52,224 nucleotides of DNA from Xenorhabdus koppenhoeferi (GTDB taxonomy: Bacteria; Pseudomonadota; Gammaproteobacteria; Enterobacterales; Enterobacteriaceae): contig NZ_FPBJ01000024.1 of NCBI RefSeq assembly GCF_900116635.1, forward strand, positions 1 through 52,224, read 5' to 3'. A program made the position numbers and the translations under genes. Under the pieces are notes generated by a model. The model was not told the DNA's origin, did no database searches, and saw nothing but the letters and a program-made list of their open reading frames with translations. This document shows positions 27,499 through 41,026 of this stretch, one piece after another (position 1 is the first letter of the stretch; every line of letters starts with the position of its first letter).

Positions 27499-27559
27499 CA
27501 TACTCAATGAATTTCGGGTTTAAGCCAACAAAGCTACAGCTTGAAATACCAAGGGTATA
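27499..27559. repeat. Degenerate short repeat copy in the malT leader
   Basis: CATACTCAATGAATTTCGGG at the left, and GCCAACAAAGCTACAGCTTG plus CCAAGGGTATA at the right, match the termini of the repeat family without its centre. The right end lies 20 bases before the malT ribosome binding site, so it is probably within the malT leader. Confidence 0.6.
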
Positions 27560-27591
27560 TTGATTTCGTTGCTTGTGAAGGGAGGAAATTA

Positions 27592-30306
27592 ATGCTTATC
27601 CCATCGAAACTCAGTCGCCCCCTTCGTCTGAGTAATATGGTCATGCGGGAGCGTTTGCTAGACAAGCTCAATTCCGCACAGGATCATAAGCTTGTATTGA
27701 TAACCAGTCCTGCCGGATATGGTAAAACCACCCTGATGTCACAGTGGGCTGCCAGACAGCATAATTTGGGGTGGTATTCACTGGATGACAGCGATAATCA
27801 GCCAGAACGTTTTGCCAGTTATTTGATTACGGCCATTCAGCAGGCAACACAGGGGCACTGTGTGAAAAGTGAGATTCTGGCCCAGAAACATCAATATGCC
27901 AACTTATCGGCATTGTTTGCTCAACTGTTTATTGAACTCAGTGAATGGCGGCAATCGGTTTTGCTGGTGATTGACGATTATCATCTGATAGTTAATGGTT
28001 TGATCCATGAAGCGATGCGTTTTTTTCTCCGCCACCAGCCAGAAAATTTAACATTGATGATTCTATCACGCCACCTGCCATCGTTAGGCGTTGCCAACCT
28101 GCGGGTACGAGAACAGTTATTGGAGATTGATAGCCAGCAGTTGGCATTTGATTATCAGGAAACCCATCAGTTTTTTGCCAACCGTTTGGCAAATCCGTTG
28201 GACGCTGATAATTGCAAGCAACTATGCAACGATGTTGCGGGATGGGCAACAGCTTTGCAGCTTATTGCTCTTTCAGCCCGCCAATCGGGCAATGCGGCTG
28301 AAATATCAGCCAAGCGTCTTTCAGGGATTAATGCAACTCATCTGGCTGATTACCTTGTCGATGAGGTTTTAAATCGCGTGGATCAGGCGACACGTGATTT
28401 TTTGCTGCACAGTTCTATTCTGCGTTCCATGAATGATGGGTTGATTGTTTGTCTGACGGGGGAGGAAAACGGTCAGCAACGTCTTGAAGATATAGAACGG
28501 CAGGGGTTGTTTATCCAGCGAATGGATGATTCTGGAGAATGGTTCTGTTTCCATCCTTTGTTTGCATCATTTTTGCGTCAACGCTGCCAATGGGAAATGG
28601 CAACGAAATTGCCTGAATTACACAGGGCGGCAGTAAAAGGATGGTTGATGCAAGGATTCCCAGGGGAGGCTATTCACCATGCCCTTGCTGCCGGAGATTC
28701 CGTGTTGTTGAGAGATATTTTGCTGCAACATGCCTGGGAACTGTTCAATCACAGCAAACTGTCTTTGCTGGAAGAGTGCATGAATGCACTGCCATATGAA
28801 CAGTTATTGGAAAGTCCTCGTCTGGTATTGTTGCAAGCATGGTTGGCACAGAGTCAGCATCGTCACTATGAGGTGAATGCGCTATTGAACCAAGCTGAGC
28901 AATCGTTGCAGCAAAAACAGATAGCGATTGAGCCGGAATTATTGGGGGAATTTGATGCCCTGCGAGCTCAGGTGGCAATCAACGATGGCCGGCCAGACGA
29001 TGCAGAAGCTTTGGCTGAGAAGGCGCTAATGACGTTGCTGCCCGATAATCAATATGGTCGCATTGTAGCAATGTCAGTGAAAGGAGAAGTATTGCATTGT
29101 AATGGGCAGCTGGCGAGTGCACTGGCTCTGATGAAGCAGACGGAGCAACTCGCCCGACTTTGCCATGTTTATCACTATGCGTTATGGGCATTGTTGCAGC
29201 AAAGTGAGATTTTGCTGGCGCAAGGTTATTTACAGGCTGCCTATGATACTCAGACCCATGCATTTGATTTAATACGTGAACAGCATCTGGAACAGTTGCC
29301 AATGCATGAATTCCTGCTAAGGATCCGTTCGCAGCTTCTGTGGTGTTGGGCCCGCATTGATGAATCTGAAAAAGCAGCACGTCGAGGTCTGGAAGTGCTG
29401 TCCAATTTCCAGCCACAGCAACAATTGCAATGTCTGACCCAATTGGCTAAATGTTCTTTGAGCCGTGGGGATATTGATAATGCCCGTCGTTACTTATCCC
29501 GTTGTGAAAATCTGTTGAGTAATGGGAATTATCACCAAGATTGGCGCACAAATACCGACAAACTGCGTGTCGTCATCTGGCAGAGTTTGGAAGATAGCAA
29601 CGCGGTGACTCAATGGTTGCTACAGGCGGAAAGACCAGAAAGCTTCTGTAACCATTTTAACCAAAACCAGTGGCGTAATATTGCCCGCGCACAAATCCTG
29701 CTGGGTCAGTATGAAGAAGCTGAGTCTATATTGAATAAGTTGAGTGAATACGCGAGAAAACTACTGCTTATCAGCGACTTGAACCGTAATCTTCTTCTGT
29801 GCAATCTGCTGTACTGGCAGCTTGGACGCAAAGCGGAGGCTCAGGATGTTTTGATGGAAGCATTGAGCTTAGCTAATCGCACAGGGTTCATTAGCCATTT
29901 TGTTATCGAAGGGGAATTAATGGCTTTGCAACTTCGCCAGCTCATTCAGCTCAATATATTGCCTGAAATGGAACAGCATCGTGCACAGCGCATTCTGCGG
30001 GAAATCAACCGCCAGCATCGACATAAGTTTGCTCATTTTGATGAGGTATTTGTTGAGCAATTACTCACGCATCCTTATGTGCCGGAACTTATCCGCAATA
30101 GTCCGCTTACCCAGCGTGAATGGCAGGTCTTGGGTTTGATTTATTCTGGTTATAGCAATGATCAGATAGCAACAGAATTGGATGTGGCGGCGACTACGAT
30201 TAAAACCCATATACGAAACTTATACCAAAAAATGGGGATTACGCACCGGCAGGAAGCTATTCAGCAGGCCCAGAGCTTAATGCAGATGATGGGATTGGGA
30301 GTTTAA
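27592..30306 (+). CDS. malT: Maltose regulon transcriptional activator MalT
   Basis: MalT is an ATP- and maltotriose-dependent STAND activator of all mal operons. From the ATG at 27592 (GGGAGGA ribosome binding site) the protein has 904 residues (E. coli 901) and the family start [10 protein letters not shown]; the frame is open further upstream through a repeat and was not used. The Walker [10 protein letters not shown] (about 35-43), Walker B LLVIDDYH (about 123-130), tetratricopeptide-like sensor region and C-terminal LuxR-type helix-turn-helix ([20 protein letters not shown], about 840) are intact. Confidence 0.97.
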
Positions 30307-30447
30307 TGACTTTCTCTCATACTCTTTCTGAATGTGATTTGTTCATTTTTAATATTATTAATAAATATTAATCAAGGGGTATATGCATTTAAGATATATA
30401 TTAAATTTTAAAAATATTTAATATTTTTTGTTGTCTTTTTGTGATCG

Positions 30448-30477
30448 TAATCTAATTTAAATGGGATTAATCTAATT
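30448..30477. promoter_or_regulatory. 10-bp direct repeat upstream of the aminotransferase cluster
   Basis: TAATCTAATT occurs at 30448-30457 and 30468-30477, exactly 20 bases apart (two helical turns), within a very AT-rich 227-base gap. The spacing fits a dimeric regulator binding one DNA face. No promoter hexamers were assigned, and chance repetition in AT-rich DNA is possible. Confidence 0.35.
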
Positions 30478-30533
30478 CTCATCACAGCAGGGTATTTTTT
30501 CATTGTTGAATGTAACTAATAGTGGTGAGTGCT

Positions 30534-31784
30534 ATGGAAAATAAAAACCATCTTGAAGACACACTTTCTCGTTTTGTTGGTCAAGGTCCTTATTTGGTCA
30601 TTGATGGCGAAAAATATATTGATGCGGCATCAGGAACATTTAATTTACCACTTGGGTATACAAATCAAAGAATTGCAGAAAAGCTCAAACAGCAAATTGA
30701 TAGATGTACACATTTAAGTTCAGCTTATACACATGAAATGTCACAGTTTATTTTAAGTAAACTCGTGAAACATACACCAAAAGGAATAGATCATATTTGG
30801 TTGAGGGATGTTTCTGGTTCTGGGGCGGTTGAATGTGCCATCCGTATAGCGCAAAAAGCTACGGGTCGTTCCGGTATTATCTCATTTTTCCTTGCTCATC
30901 ACGGGCAATCTCTGGCGACAGCACAGATTTCTGGTAATGCGTTCAGAATAAAAGATTTCCATATCAACATTGATGGTTCGATAAAAATTCCAGCGCCAAC
31001 CAGTGTCTTGGCCGAATCAGAATCACAGTCGGAAAGAGTGCCGTTTGTCGATCTGGAACAGTTTATTCAATTAGGTTCTAGCGACAATATCGCATGTCTG
31101 ATTATTGAACCGATTCAGGGAAATGGGGGGAACAACGTTTTTCCGGTAGAGTTCTACCGCAAGATCAGGGATATCTGTCATCAGCATGGGATTATCATCA
31201 TTGCGGATGAAGTACAGACCGGTTTTGGTCGCACAGGAACCTTCTTCGCCTCAACGGGTTATGCTAAGGATTTAGAGCCGGACATTATTGTGTTCGCCAA
31301 AGGTGCGGGAGGTATTGGGATCCCGACCGGCGGTGTGTTGATGCGTCATTCACTGGATGTGTTGGAATCGTTTGAACATTCCAGTACTTCGGGTGCCAAT
31401 CCCCTTTCTTTAGTCGCCCTCAACGAAGTCATTGATATTATTGAAGATGACCATGTTCTGGAAAATGTACAGCAAAATGAAGGTCATTTACGTGATGGAT
31501 TGCTGAAGTTACAGCATAAATATCCGGAAATCACGGGAGTCAGGGGAGTGGGATATATGTATGGTTTTGATACGCCCTCGCCTGAGTTTGCAGCCCGGGC
31601 GATTGCAACTGCCAGCCGCCACCATTTGATTTTACGTGGTTCCCGCTATGGAAAAGGAAAAACAATTAAAGTTCGCCCACCGCTGATTTGTACACCGGCT
31701 CATCTGGACGAAATTTTATACAAACTGGATCTGACTTTTGCAGAATTAACGGTTACTTCACCAGTATATAGGGAGATTGCGTAA
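30534..31784 (+). CDS. Class III (GabT-like) PLP aminotransferase
   Basis: The 416-residue product belongs to the fold-type I class III aminotransferases (ornithine, GABA and related). It shows the PLP-phosphate segment SGSGAVECAIRIAQKATGR (about 95-113), the cofactor aspartate in IIIADEVQTGFGRTG (about 222-236), and the Schiff-base lysine in VFAKGAGGIGIPTGG (about 255). The ATG at 30534 has GGTGAG ahead; the in-frame GTG at 30522 lacks a site. It overlaps the next gene by one base (TAATG), so the two are translationally coupled. The context (zinc dehydrogenase, phosphatase, transporter) suggests transamination of a keto-sugar or keto-polyol rather than ornithine or GABA breakdown, but the substrate is unknown. 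Confidence 0.85.
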   Translation: MENKNHLEDTLSRFVGQGPYLVIDGEKYIDAASGTFNLPLGYTNQRIAEKLKQQIDRCTHLSSAYTHEMSQFILSKLVKHTPKGIDHIWLRDVSGSGAVECAIRIAQKATGRSGIISFFLAHHGQSLATAQISGNAFRIKDFHINIDGSIKIPAPTSVLAESESQSERVPFVDLEQFIQLGSSDNIACLIIEPIQGNGGNNVFPVEFYRKIRDICHQHGIIIIADEVQTGFGRTGTFFASTGYAKDLEPDIIVFAKGAGGIGIPTGGVLMRHSLDVLESFEHSSTSGANPLSLVALNEVIDIIEDDHVLENVQQNEGHLRDGLLKLQHKYPEITGVRGVGYMYGFDTPSPEFAARAIATASRHHLILRGSRYGKGKTIKVRPPLICTPAHLDEILYKLDLTFAELTVTSPVYREIA

Positions 31785-32845
31785 TGTTAGCACTTAAATA
31801 CCATCAGGCATGGAATGTCCAGATCCAACAAGTTGAACCGTTGTCTTGTATTGAAGCTGATGACGTTGTTGTTGATATTGCGGTATGTGGCATTTGTGGC
31901 ACCGATGTGGGCATTATTACTGACTCTTACCCGGTTGCTGTATCGGGAACCACATTGGGTCATGAGACTACGGGTGTAGTGGCTGAAATTGGCAAAGGTG
32001 TGACTCAGTTTCAAGTTGGGGATCGTGTTGTCATCAACCCGACATACTCTTGCGGGCATTGCCGGATGTGCCAAACAGGAAATCCTAATCATTGCGAGAA
32101 AAAAATGGGGACGGAAGCAGGGGTTTCCTACGATGGGGCGTTTGCGGGCCAATATCTGGCAAAAGAAAATCTGCTAATCAAGCTGGATGAACATGTCAGC
32201 ATGGAAGACGCGTCGTTGACAGAGCCATTGAGTTGCACACTGACGGGAGTGGATAAACTTGGGATCACCCACACGAATATTCGTGCGGCAGTAGCGGGTG
32301 CCGGCCCTATGGGAATGCTGTATATCTGGGCATTGCATGAGCGGGGCGTTAAGGCATTTATGGTTGAGAAAAATGAGAGCCGGAGGCAGTTTGCCAAAAA
32401 TAATTTGCCGTCAGAATGTCAGTTATATTCCGATTTTGATGAAGCATTGATTCAGGAATATGGCGATAAGACAACTTTGCTTGATTTATGCGTGGATACA
32501 ACAGGGCAATTGACTGAATATATTTTTGACCATCTGGCTCCGGGTGGAAAGTTACTGAATGTAGCCCTGAAAGATAAACATGCCAGCTTAGATATTATGA
32601 AGATTGCCGATAAAAGCCTCTCTGTTATCGGCTCTATTGACTCTTTGAACAACAGTTTTGAACGCGCTTATGCCATGATCCGTGATGGTATCATTCCTGT
32701 AGGACGCTTAATTAGTCATGTATTTGATTTCAAAGATTATCAACAAGCTTTCCTCACAGTTGGCTGTGATATCGCGGCAAAAACTCAAATACCGCTTAGT
32801 ACCCCAAACTGCAAGGTATTGATACGCATATCCGACTTAAAATAA
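31784..32845 (+). CDS. Zinc-dependent dehydrogenase (threonine/sorbitol dehydrogenase type)
   Basis: A 353-residue medium-chain dehydrogenase. The catalytic zinc ligands are in CGICGTDVG (about 35-43) and GHETTGVVAEIG (about 59-70). The structural zinc cysteines are CGHCRMCQTGNPNHC (about 85-99), and the nucleotide-binding glycines are AGAGPMGML (about 170-178). Such enzymes oxidise secondary or primary alcohols of polyols, amino alcohols or threonine with NAD(P). It overlaps the aminotransferase stop codon and is followed after 24 bases by a phosphatase. The glutamate after the nucleotide-binding strand (FMVEKNESRR) hints at NAD rather than NADP. The substrate is unknown. Confidence 0.85.
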   Translation: MLALKYHQAWNVQIQQVEPLSCIEADDVVVDIAVCGICGTDVGIITDSYPVAVSGTTLGHETTGVVAEIGKGVTQFQVGDRVVINPTYSCGHCRMCQTGNPNHCEKKMGTEAGVSYDGAFAGQYLAKENLLIKLDEHVSMEDASLTEPLSCTLTGVDKLGITHTNIRAAVAGAGPMGMLYIWALHERGVKAFMVEKNESRRQFAKNNLPSECQLYSDFDEALIQEYGDKTTLLDLCVDTTGQLTEYIFDHLAPGGKLLNVALKDKHASLDIMKIADKSLSVIGSIDSLNNSFERAYAMIRDGIIPVGRLISHVFDFKDYQQAFLTVGCDIAAKTQIPLSTPNCKVLIRISDLK

Positions 32846-32869
32846 TGAATTTCTTGAAGGCTATTTTTG

Positions 32870-33520
32870 ATGGATAAATGGAATGTCATTTTTGATATCG
32901 ACGGCGTTATTGTTGATAGTGAACAACTGCACTTTGACGTATTACTTGATGTACTGTCTGATGCATTAGGCGAACAAGCACCAGACCAAATAGCGGATAT
33001 TCAACCACAGCAATTGATAGGGCTCAGTCTGGAGGAAACCTTGGATAAGGTTGGGTGTCCATCATCAATGCAACAAGACATTACCCAAAAAATTATTTCG
33101 CGCTATAAAACAAAATTGTCAGGGCATTATCTGCGTCCGGGAATTACTAATCTGATTACTGCCTTGCAACAAAATGGTACTAATTTTGGATTTGTTTCCA
33201 CGGCACCGCGTGATGTGTGTTTAACCAATCTTGGTTTGCTGGATCTGTATGAACTGCCAGCCTTGATTTCGGGTGATGACGTAGAAAGAACCAAGCCTTT
33301 TCCTGATCCTTATTTGGCTATGCTGAGGCTGAAAGCGATGGATGTTCATCAAACATTAGTGATTGAAGATACTGATTTGGGGATTGCGGCGGCAAAACAG
33401 GCTGGTATTCCGTCGATATATGCCTGGCCTCACGCTTTGTCTTTGACAGAGCAATATGAGCAGGCTACCGGCGTTATTGTGAAGTTAGCGGATATTCCCC
33501 AGTTTGAAGGTATTGTTTGA
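32870..33520 (+). CDS. HAD-superfamily phosphatase (beta-phosphoglucomutase type)
   Basis: A 216-residue HAD hydrolase. Motif I FDIDGVIVDSE (about 8-18) holds the nucleophile and acid/base aspartates; motif II is FVSTAP (about 106); the motif III lysine is in DVERTKPFPDPYL (about 138-150); motif IV is IEDTDLGIAAAKQAG (about 163-177). This subfamily dephosphorylates hexose phosphates and similar small substrates, or acts as phosphoglucomutase. The ATG at 32870 was preferred over the TTG three bases earlier because of its spacing from GAAGG. It closes the tightly packed aminotransferase-dehydrogenase-phosphatase unit. Confidence 0.85.
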   Translation: MDKWNVIFDIDGVIVDSEQLHFDVLLDVLSDALGEQAPDQIADIQPQQLIGLSLEETLDKVGCPSSMQQDITQKIISRYKTKLSGHYLRPGITNLITALQQNGTNFGFVSTAPRDVCLTNLGLLDLYELPALISGDDVERTKPFPDPYLAMLRLKAMDVHQTLVIEDTDLGIAAAKQAGIPSIYAWPHALSLTEQYEQATGVIVKLADIPQFEGIV

Positions 33521-33669
33521 AGATCTTGCTTGAAGGTATTAGTACCAAGTTAATGTGATGCTTTGATGATAAACATTGGGTGTCTTTTTGGTGCCCTTCG
33601 ATAAATTTAGGGGAGGGCATGATTTTAAAAAAGAATAGCTTTAAAAGAATATAATTTGGAGGAATTAAG

Positions 33670-34821
33670 TTGTCTGAAGAATATGTAGCCTCTTCGATAA
33701 AGCAGCCGATCATGGCAACACGGATTTCGTTTTTTATTGCCGGATTCAGCATTGCAAGTTGGGCACCACTGATCCCGCTGGTAAAGGAACGATTGGGGTT
33801 GAGTGATGGCTCAATGGGGTTGCTGATATTGATATTTGGTATCGGCTCTTTCATTATGATGCCGATTGCAGGCATGCTGGCGACTCGTTTTGGTTGCCGG
33901 AAGGTTTTTACCTTCTTTGCCTTGCTGGCAATTTTGATATTGCCGGGGCTTAGTGTGCTCTCTACACCACTGACACTGGCTTGTGCCTTGTTTGTATTCG
34001 GTGCAGGCATTGGCGCGACTGATGTGGTAATCAATATTCACGCGGTCAATATTGAGAAACAGGTGCATCAACCGGTTATGTCGGGTTTCCATGCGTTGTT
34101 CAGCTTGGGGGGGATTGCCGGTGCAGGTCTTGTCAGCTTATTGCTGTTTATGGGCATTCCTCCATTTCAGGTCACCGTTGCTGTGGCGTTATTCATTATC
34201 CTGTTGTTGCTGCCGACGTGGAATGGGTTACTGGATAACGCTGAAACGGAGGAAACGCCATTTTTTGCCTTACCCCGGGGCATTGTTATTCTGATTGGCT
34301 CTCTCTGTTTTGTCGTTTATTTAATGGAAGGTTCCATGCTGGATTGGAGCGGGATCTTGCTAAGTAGCGTACATGACATGAGTCTCCATCAGGCTGGTTT
34401 TGGCTACACACTCTTCGCCATTACGATGACATGCGGCCGATTTTTGGGCGATAGAATTATTGCGGCTTTTGGATACCGGCGTGTATTTTTGGGCAGCGCA
34501 ATTTTAGCAACATCAGGTTTTGTTCTTATCTATCTGGCTACTGGCATGGTTCAGCTGGGAATTGCTTTCCTGATGATAGGTGCAGGGTTGTCTAACTTGG
34601 CACCGATGTTTTTCACCGCATCCGGGCAGCAAAAAGTAATGCCTGATGCGTTAGCAGTTTCTGCCGTTTCGACAATGGGATACTCGGGGATACTGCTTGG
34701 CCCGGCAATTATCGGAGGTTTAGCCCATCAAATAACATTGCATGGTGCTTTTGGCTGGATTGCTTTGCTGTCTCTTTCATTATTAGCGGGATACGGTTTG
34801 ATTAATCCCCCCAAAAAATAA
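33670..34821 (+). CDS. MFS transporter (YbjJ-like)
   Basis: A 383-residue major facilitator protein with about 12 membrane helices. The inter-helix 2/3 motif is present as GMLATRFGCRKVF (about 73-85) and a second-half counterpart as GDRIIAAFGYRRVF (about 260). The overall look is that of the E. coli YbjJ branch, whose substrates are poorly known. The TTG at 33670 is taken as start because GGAGGA lies eight bases ahead. A 149-base gap separates it from the phosphatase, and a TATAAT (33650-33655) sits just before the ribosome binding site, so it may have its own promoter. Import or export of the cluster's compound is inferred. Confidence 0.85.
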   Translation: MSEEYVASSIKQPIMATRISFFIAGFSIASWAPLIPLVKERLGLSDGSMGLLILIFGIGSFIMMPIAGMLATRFGCRKVFTFFALLAILILPGLSVLSTPLTLACALFVFGAGIGATDVVINIHAVNIEKQVHQPVMSGFHALFSLGGIAGAGLVSLLLFMGIPPFQVTVAVALFIILLLLPTWNGLLDNAETEETPFFALPRGIVILIGSLCFVVYLMEGSMLDWSGILLSSVHDMSLHQAGFGYTLFAITMTCGRFLGDRIIAAFGYRRVFLGSAILATSGFVLIYLATGMVQLGIAFLMIGAGLSNLAPMFFTASGQQKVMPDALAVSAVSTMGYSGILLGPAIIGGLAHQITLHGAFGWIALLSLSLLAGYGLINPPKK

Positions 34822-34835
34822 CAGGGTAAATATTG

Positions 34836-35432
34836 ATGAATTTGCAGGAATGTCAGTGGTTGAATGAGCCTGCCTCATGGTGGCATCAGGAAGATGAACT
34901 TCATGTTATGACGGATCATAAAACCGATTTCTGGCGTGATACATGGTATGGTTTTCAGCGTCATAGTGGTCATGTATTTGGTGGCTATATTGATGATTTT
35001 GAGCTTGAAGACGGTTTTACCGTTCAGTTTTGCATTGAAGGCCAGTTTGAGCAGTTATACGATCAGGCTGGCATTATGTTGCTGGTGGATGAGCAACATT
35101 GGCTGAAAGCCGGAATCGAGCATTCTGACGAGCAGGCAACCATTGGTAGTGTGCTGACAAATGGAGGCTCAGACTGGGCGATGGGAATTTTTCCGGGTAA
35201 TCCCGATAAGTTTTGGCTGCGGCTCACTTATGGAGAGGATGCTATCCGGTTACAGTATTCCACTGATGGTGTGACATGGCCGTTACTGAGATTGTCTCCT
35301 TTTAAGGTGAGTAATCGGCGCATTTTTGTTGGCGCAATGTGTTGCTCGCCGGAGCGTGAAGGATTACAGGTGAAATTTTCTGATTTCAGGTTGATGCCAT
35401 CAATGAAAAAACACCTGCATGATTTGAGTTAG
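34836..35432 (+). CDS. DUF1349 (concanavalin A-like fold) protein
   Basis: The 198-residue soluble product matches the DUF1349 family: DFWRDTWYGFQRHSGHVFGG near residue 29, QAGIMLLVDEQHWLKAGIE (about 80-98), then beta-strand-rich sequence with SDWAMG and RIFVGAMCCSPEREGL. The fold is predicted to be a lectin/glucanase-like beta-sandwich; the family has no established reaction, though its fold suggests carbohydrate contact. There is no signal peptide, so it is cytoplasmic. It follows the transporter by 14 bases and is certainly in its operon. Confidence 0.8.
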   Translation: MNLQECQWLNEPASWWHQEDELHVMTDHKTDFWRDTWYGFQRHSGHVFGGYIDDFELEDGFTVQFCIEGQFEQLYDQAGIMLLVDEQHWLKAGIEHSDEQATIGSVLTNGGSDWAMGIFPGNPDKFWLRLTYGEDAIRLQYSTDGVTWPLLRLSPFKVSNRRIFVGAMCCSPEREGLQVKFSDFRLMPSMKKHLHDLS

Positions 35433-35541: not shown

Positions 35542-36670
35542 TTACCGACCCAAATAATTATCCCAATCTTTCCAGACGGGTTGCAAACCGACTCTGGCTA
35601 AAGTCTCAGCGACCTGAAAAACGGGACGATTGTCGTGGGGAGCAAATTGCTCCAGCTCGTGATGCCCATCGGCATAGCCGCCCGGTTGGGTTTTGGAACC
35701 TGCACTGATGCTATTGATCGCGAGTGGCACAACGTGATCGCGGAAGAAAGGTGACTCGCGGGTGGAAAGTGAAAGTTCTACATCTGGTGCCAGCAGGCGA
35801 AATGCGCAAATCAGTTGCACCAATTCGGCTTCATTCATGATGGAAGCTGGTTCAATGCCGCCTGCACAGGGGCGTAGCCGTGGGAAGGAGATGGAGTAAC
35901 GACTTTTCCAGAATTGTTTTTGCAGGAAAAGCAGATGCTCCGCTACCATATAGCAATCGGTTCTCCAATTGTGGGATAACCCGATCAAAGCACCCAATCC
36001 AATCTTGTCGATACCTGCCCGTCCAAGGCGTTCTGGTGTTTCCAGCCGCCAGTGGAAATCCTGTTTTTTGCCTTTTAAATGGTGCAACTGATAGCTGGGT
36101 TGGTGATAAGTTTCTTGGTAGACCATCACGCCATCCAGCCCCAGAGTTTTTAGTTCGGCGTACTCTTCTTGTGCCAATGGCTGGACTTCCATTGAGGCTG
36201 AACTGAAATGGCGATGTATCAAGGGAAGATAGCGGCGAAAATAATCCATGCCAACTTTGTTTTGATGCTCTCCTGTTACCAGCAAGATGTGCTCAAATCC
36301 CAGTTTCTTCAGTGCCAGGCATTCCGCCTCAATTTCCTGTTCATCCAGCGTCTTGCGTTTAATGTGATTACTCATGGAGAAACCACAATAGGTACAGTCG
36401 TTAGCACACAGATTGGAAAGGTAGAGTGGGATAAAAAATCCCACGGTATTACCAAAACGCTGGCGGGTGAGTTGCTGCGCACGCTGGGCGAGCGGCTCAA
36501 GATACGGCAGAGCGGCGGGGGAAAGCAGTGCCATAAAATCATCCAGAGTCAGACGGTCGCTATATCATTAGTGCGCGTTTAACATTCTGTGATGTTTTAC
36601 TGTTGATGCTCAGGGTGATGTCATCCCAATCCAATTGTTCCCAGCGCCGGCGAAAAGTGGCGGATTTCAT
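35542..36670 (-). pseudogene. thiH: 2-iminoacetate synthase ThiH, frameshifted near the N-terminus
   Basis: ThiH is the radical-SAM enzyme that cleaves tyrosine to dehydroglycine for the thiazole ring. The normal start (ATG 36670) overlaps the thiG stop (ATGA) and encodes [18 protein letters not shown], but this frame meets TAG at 36560 after 36 codons. The rest of ThiH continues in another frame from about 36557 (SDRLTLDDF, then MALLSPAA) to the end. Between the two homologous parts lie seven bases, i.e. one extra or two missing. The downstream frame has an ATG at 36534 (330 residues) and keeps the radical-SAM motif CANDCTYCGF, so a protein lacking about 46 residues could be made, but activity is doubtful. 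A sequencing error is the alternative. Confidence 0.8.

Positions 36671-37662: not shown

Positions 37663-41026
<3,364 letters not shown>

Follow-up and report, generated by a model that had tools for sequence, protein, structure and literature searches.

The stretch of DNA that was analysed (the window) comprises 52,224 nucleotides of Xenorhabdus koppenhoeferi and is a single contig of a 3.18 Mb genome. An open reading frame check and a Pfam profile search revealed five open and intact genes on the forward strand (Table 1), in agreement with the positions given by a first-pass annotation of the same DNA. The dehydrogenase (DH) start lies on the stop of the aminotransferase (AT), with an overlap of 1 base, and the remaining genes are separated by 24 bases (DH to HAD), 149 bases (HAD to MFS) and 14 bases (MFS to DUF1349). 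The cluster is bordered upstream by malT and downstream by thiH. Farther along, a thiC-like frame is interrupted by two stops in frame and continues into thiE without a stop between them; it may be broken, fused, or the product of an assembly error. The AT-rich region between malT and AT includes a TGTGATCGAAATAAAATTT-like stretch that is retained in most of 15 aligned Xenorhabdus loci, and is a possible regulator site. A defence-gene reading was dropped, as PADLOC returned zero defence matches for any of the five proteins.

Table 1. Coordinates of the cluster and of neighbouring features in the window
Feature	Position	Strand	Profile match or basis of name
malT	27541-30306		name by eye from translation
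AT-rich upstream region	30307-30533
Class III (PLP) aminotransferase (AT), GabT1-like	30534-31784	+	PF00202, 273.5 bits
Zinc-type medium-chain dehydrogenase (DH), GutB1-like	31784-32845	+	PF08240/PF16912/PF00107
HAD-superfamily phosphatase (HAD), sugar-phosphatase type	32870-33520	+	PF13419
MFS transporter (MFS), YbjJ-like, TTG start	33670-34821	+	PF07690
DUF1349 concanavalin-like protein	34836-35432	+	PF07081, 209.2 bits
thiH	35542-36534	opposite to cluster	name by eye from translation
thiC-like frame	38477-41008	-	name by eye

Azasugar clusters were defined by Beal and Horenstein (2021; PMC8382821) as adjacent genes of PF00202, of PF00107/PF08240/PF16912 and of PF00459/PF13419/PF12710, and the window contains such a trio in its adjacent PF00202 aminotransferase, PF00107/PF08240/PF16912 dehydrogenase and PF13419 phosphatase. 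As putative azasugar producers, the same paper names 31 Xenorhabdus and 25 Photorhabdus entries. The azasugar idea for these genera is thus already in print, and the inference of the first-pass annotation, that the locus directs the biosynthesis of nojirimycin-type compounds, repeats a published prediction. Since one matching AT was found per genome (E <= 1e-60), we infer that the Xenorhabdus predictions refer to the present locus. Titles and abstract openings of the open-licence literature revealed no azasugar product from Xenorhabdus or Photorhabdus beyond the predictions of PMC8382821. According to that paper, the order AT-DH-phosphatase with HAD phosphatases occurs in Chitinophaga and Paenibacillus, MFS genes are frequent companions of azasugar clusters, and PF07081 (DUF1349) is found among the phosphatase Pfams of Chitinophaga and Paenibacillus strains. 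A putative fucose permease has likewise been described near the gabT1 orthologue of the P. polymyxa SC2 cluster, in a study of Streptomyces azasugars (PMC8466323). The HAD enzyme had been proposed to stand in for the Bacillus phosphatase Yktc1; a HAD phosphatase is indeed part of the cluster, but it is no new replacement, as AT-DH-HAD is the known Paenibacillus/Chitinophaga type.

In a tree of 32 aminotransferase rows, the 16 cluster enzymes formed a single group (support 100/100), to which the Streptomyces and P. polymyxa proteins belong. GabT and ArgD of E. coli fell outside this group, as did six further aminotransferases encoded in the genome of the window; four of these six lie on long branches, so that their own placement is unsure. 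All 16 cluster enzymes carry T50, Q141, N211, S298 and K398 (E. coli GabT numbering), with an arginine two residues further, a combination seen in none of the remaining 16 rows. Where E. coli GabT and ArgD have an Arg/Glu/Arg set (R141, E211, R398), every cluster enzyme has Q, N and K. Positions 141, 211 and 398 are the carboxylate-handling sites of GabT, and their replacement suggests that the substrate of AT is likely to be altered relative to that of GabT. These observations bear on whether the enzymes simply catabolise amino acids (GABA, ornithine or threonine), at which the annotation of homologues as DavT or aspartate aminotransferase would hint. The window AT scored far under the cut-off in every one of the NCBIfam aminotransferase families listed (25 of 71), and DH did so in all 22 dehydrogenase families, failing the threonine dehydrogenase models TIGR00692 (115 bits, cut-off 458) and NF003808 (128 bits, cut-off 380). 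With AT falling in neither the GabT nor the ArgD clade and devoid of R141/E211/R398, such a catabolic role is highly improbable, and the identity of the proteins as GABA, ornithine or threonine enzymes was rejected on the basis of the tree, the active-site residues and the NCBIfam scores. The placement in ornithine/GABA or threonine catabolic clades that the first-pass annotation had named as fatal to its reading was therefore not observed.

The published consensus of azasugar aminotransferases, SGNXFRXXXFPNXXXXXXXLXVPXPYCXRC (PMC8382821), specifies 16 letters, of which the window AT matched 8 by hand count (S, G, N, F, R, F, P, P). It retains SGN, FR, F and two prolines, and is devoid of PN, L, V and YCxRC. 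None of the 35 enterobacterial rows listed has the YCxRC element, although two of them have a single cysteine further on. The enzyme of P. polymyxa pPpO211 matched 16/16 letters, including YCxRC, with a spacing one residue shorter. In the Streptomyces enzyme a CxxC pair and two more cysteines are kept, and the Y and R of YCxRC are absent. This loop, with CxxC and two further cysteines, is shared by the Paenibacillus (L059) and Streptomyces (L058) proteins, in which it could form a metal site; the CxxC pair is missing in the enterobacterial rows. The authors of PMC8382821 noted that their consensus search overlooked some three-gene clusters. Strict use of the consensus would exclude the window AT, whereas its clade, active site, gene set and gene order suggest that it works like an azasugar-type enzyme. 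The enterobacterial branch would then widen the azasugar family past the published sequence motif.

The catalytic features of the other two enzymes are also conserved. Zinc-ligand-type residues and the GxGPxG motif of DH were retained in 11 aligned cluster rows, the HAD motifs (DxD, S/T, K and acidic) were retained in 11/11 rows, and the window HAD passed the broad HAD-IA model TIGR01509 with 47.8 bits (cut-off 29.4). Outside the Enterobacterales, the closest plasmid-borne relatives of AT and DH were a Streptomyces pair and the azasugar-type pair of P. polymyxa. The window AT is 52% identical to the Streptomyces protein and 42% to that of P. polymyxa pPpO211; the corresponding values for DH are 49% and 41% (the latter to a protein annotated GutB1), with 67% to Erwinia, and HAD shares 54% with Erwinia and 28% with P. 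polymyxa. When the pPpO211 proteins were used as plasmid queries, AT matched this clade at 42-49% and everything else at <=35.4% (best 30 of 391 matches listed), and DH matched the clade at 42-43%, followed by <=34.0% (best 25 of 199 matches listed). On pPpO211, genes for MFS, AT, the gutB1-annotated DH and HAD are co-directional, and a DUF1349 gene lies next to them on the opposite strand. The link to azasugar enzymes runs via pPpO211 (41-42% identity), which does not belong to the producer strain DSM 365.

In the Streptomyces relative (Streptomyces sp. NBC_00715 plasmid, L058), a glycosyltransferase occupies the place of the phosphatase, and the AT and DH genes are accompanied by DUF1349, a MATE transporter, a glycogen/starch synthase and an NAD-dependent epimerase. 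This cluster is perhaps a route to a larger sugar-mimic product. Its glycosyltransferase, synthase and epimerase are among the observations that favour the main rival to an azasugar product, namely that the window cluster makes an amino-polyol, amino sugar or aminocyclitol which does not cyclise to an azasugar, and which is perhaps a building block for a larger molecule. The best NCBIfam match of DH, scyllo-inosose 3-dehydrogenase (140 bits, cut-off 450), points the same way, as does the grouping of the aminocyclitol aminotransferase ValM with the azasugar enzymes in one 40% sequence cluster (PMC8382821). However, according to PMC8382821 the similarity of ValN to GutB1 is a mere 23% and that system is without a phosphatase, whereas a free phosphatase together with a dehydrogenase fits azasugar logic. 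The enterobacterial unit moreover consists of AT, DH, HAD and MFS, and no glycosyltransferase is annotated in the two named Erwinia regions. A non-cyclised product was judged rather unlikely on these grounds.

The cluster had been called accessory in the first-pass annotation, a description that its distribution contradicts. Within the window's genus, AT was present in 26 of 30 genomes, the window counted, as against 0/30 genomes of other genera in the same comparison (E <= 1e-60). The window protein is 84-99% identical to AT of 25 of the 29 other genomes of its genus, and 85-89% identical to that of 14 loci, every one named Xenorhabdus. The order malT-AT-DH-HAD-MFS-DUF1349 was kept in all 14 named Xenorhabdus loci fetched, with thiH farther downstream in 13 of them; the remaining contig (L018) stops before this point. 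In four genomes of a second genus (g235), the cluster is again found behind malT, with AT 83-84% and DH 85-86% identical to the window proteins, and thiH is visible in three of the four stretches. This genus is probably Photorhabdus, as a stand-alone LuxC frame (489 residues) occurs in each of its four genomes.

AT is missing from four genomes of the window's genus. Two of these (G001 and G004; loci L086 and L087) are without AT, DH, HAD and MFS and have kept malT, DUF1349 and thiH, so that DUF1349 directly adjoins malT. Because all five genes are found at this place in the probable sister genus, this state was read as the loss of a four-gene block. In the other two genomes malT was not found either, and one of them is 82% complete.

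Beyond these two genera the cluster is located elsewhere in the genome. In wider samples, AT was detected in 18 of 392 genomes from the family (9 of 154 genera), in 5 of 394 from the order and in 3 of 398 Pseudomonadota genomes, the latter being identical to the 3/398 with DH. Among plasmids, AT and DH co-occur in the same 6 records, and four extra AT records match at <=32.5%. E. coli contained no copy at blastn sensitivity, and viral contigs contained no relative of the window AT or the P. polymyxa AT. A further 14 distinct enterobacterial loci were fetched (L056, L057, L060, L061, L073-L080, L082 and L083; L081 and L056 are one plasmid and were counted once, and a second E. tracheiphila plasmid, H3, was left out). 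AT, DH, HAD and MFS are consecutive in all of them, so that the three enzyme genes do co-occur elsewhere, a point that the first-pass annotation had suggested checking. DUF1349 was whole in 10 of these loci, a fragment in L061, and was not found in L060, L077 and L078. Two of the 14 are Erwinia plasmids (Erwinia tracheiphila and Ca. Erwinia impunctatus), and an Erwinia homologue of MFS is annotated YbjJ. The genome of Ca. Erwinia impunctatus carries a broken chromosomal copy (L080), with a stop in AT and a split MFS, alongside the intact-looking plasmid copy (L056/L081). The flanks of 8 loci, read by eye with no family search, revealed no neighbours recognised as common between genera. Since G001 and G004 are without AT, DH, HAD and MFS as one block and yet keep DUF1349, the unit probably consists of these four genes, as a mobile block, and DUF1349 is an associated extra that is separable from it.

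The composition of this unit also bears on the possibility that the cluster serves to take up and degrade an amino-polyol or amino sugar, with MFS as the importer, DH and AT removing the amine, and the phosphatase as an ancillary enzyme. Such a role would suit the proximity of sugar-use genes (maltose) and the wide spread of the transporter, whose homologues occur in 164 plasmid records as against 6 for DH. The unit is, however, without a kinase, lyase or regulator, a phosphatase would be wasteful in catabolism, and the AT clade takes in the azasugar-type cluster of P. polymyxa; breakdown is accordingly improbable. The maltose connection itself, raised in the first-pass annotation, held only as to position. 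The cluster does adjoin malT, but none of four MalT-box-like patterns matched within 260 bases upstream of AT in 15 loci (a weak test), no maltose genes were recognised by eye in the flanking frames of 8 other loci, and the cluster occupies other sites outside Xenorhabdus and the probable Photorhabdus. A functional link to the maltose regulon is thus unsupported, and the location was taken as chance.

All five genes are under purifying selection. Median pairwise dN/dS values across 15 Xenorhabdus loci were 0.076 (AT), 0.056 (DH), 0.132 (HAD), 0.065 (MFS) and 0.070 (DUF1349), compared with 0.040 for malT in the same loci, and internal stops were found in none of them. Evolutionary distances of the cluster genes were correlated with r of 0.94-0.97 (18 loci), which is weak evidence of co-inheritance, because common ancestry alone yields such values. 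Relative to its nearest relative (G012), the window AT is 99% identical, and HAD 77% over residues 1-140. Recombination within the HAD gene was considered and rejected, since the 4.2 kb compared align as a single stretch with 90% DNA identity; the low identity is explained by the faster evolution of HAD (omega 0.132).

The gene set and order, the AT clade, the changed active site, purifying selection and the presence or absence of the block, together with the failed GABA, ornithine and threonine assignments, argue for azasugar-type biosynthesis as first proposed. Judged from sequence comparison, the four genes probably direct the synthesis and export of an azasugar (iminosugar); this is the most likely reading overall, with an aminocyclitol or amino-polyol as its main, and considerably less probable, rival. 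In the proposed pathway, AT would aminate a phosphoketose, such as fructose-6-phosphate or a pentulose phosphate, at its keto carbon, HAD would strip the phosphate, and the zinc dehydrogenase would oxidise the freed hydroxyl. The amine could then close on the new carbonyl to give a nitrogen ring, and the azasugar would be exported by the MFS protein. According to PMC8382821, what azasugars do in nature has yet to be established; the likely role here would be to inhibit glycosidases, either those of the insect host or those of competitors. A more speculative extension, which is doubtful as a whole, is that the enterobacterial branch, which has an altered AT loop and a HAD phosphatase and MFS exporter of its own, leads to a new azasugar, neither deoxynojirimycin nor DAB-1, that the nematode symbionts release in the insect against a host glycosidase such as trehalase, and that Erwinia living with insects and plants gained the cluster on plasmids. 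In these insect symbionts, the four genes form a candidate cluster that is found at a single locus in nearly the whole genus and from which two congeners are missing exactly those four genes, and such natural presence/absence strains make the role and product of the cluster directly testable.

The closest known systems include the homologous enterobacterial clusters of the Erwinia plasmids, the probable Photorhabdus and others, which have the same AT-DH-HAD-MFS order (AT 62-84%, DH 67-86% identity) and differ in genomic site outside Xenorhabdus and the probable Photorhabdus, and in DUF1349, which is whole in 10/14. The azasugar type of P. polymyxa and C. pinensis (PMC8382821) shares the order AT-DH-HAD, and pPpO211 also has MFS and DUF1349 nearby. 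The window cluster differs from the P. polymyxa type in an AT branch without YCxRC, in the low HAD identity given above, and in the position of MFS, which lies downstream of the enzymes here and upstream in P. polymyxa. The gabT1-yktC1-gutB1 cluster of Bacillus velezensis (deoxynojirimycin) is alike in gene type, with the same three activities, a PF00202 aminotransferase and a zinc-type dehydrogenase; its order is AT-phosphatase-DH, with an inositol-phosphatase-type PF00459 enzyme (PMC8382821), in contrast to AT-DH-HAD here. The small galactosyrin (gsn) cluster of Pseudomonas syringae (PMC11844564) resembles the window cluster in its PF00107-family dehydrogenase, phosphatase, transporter and protein of unknown function. 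As described in the available text of that paper, it is without an aminotransferase and employs a RibD-like reductase acting on a purine-pathway intermediate, unlike the window cluster.
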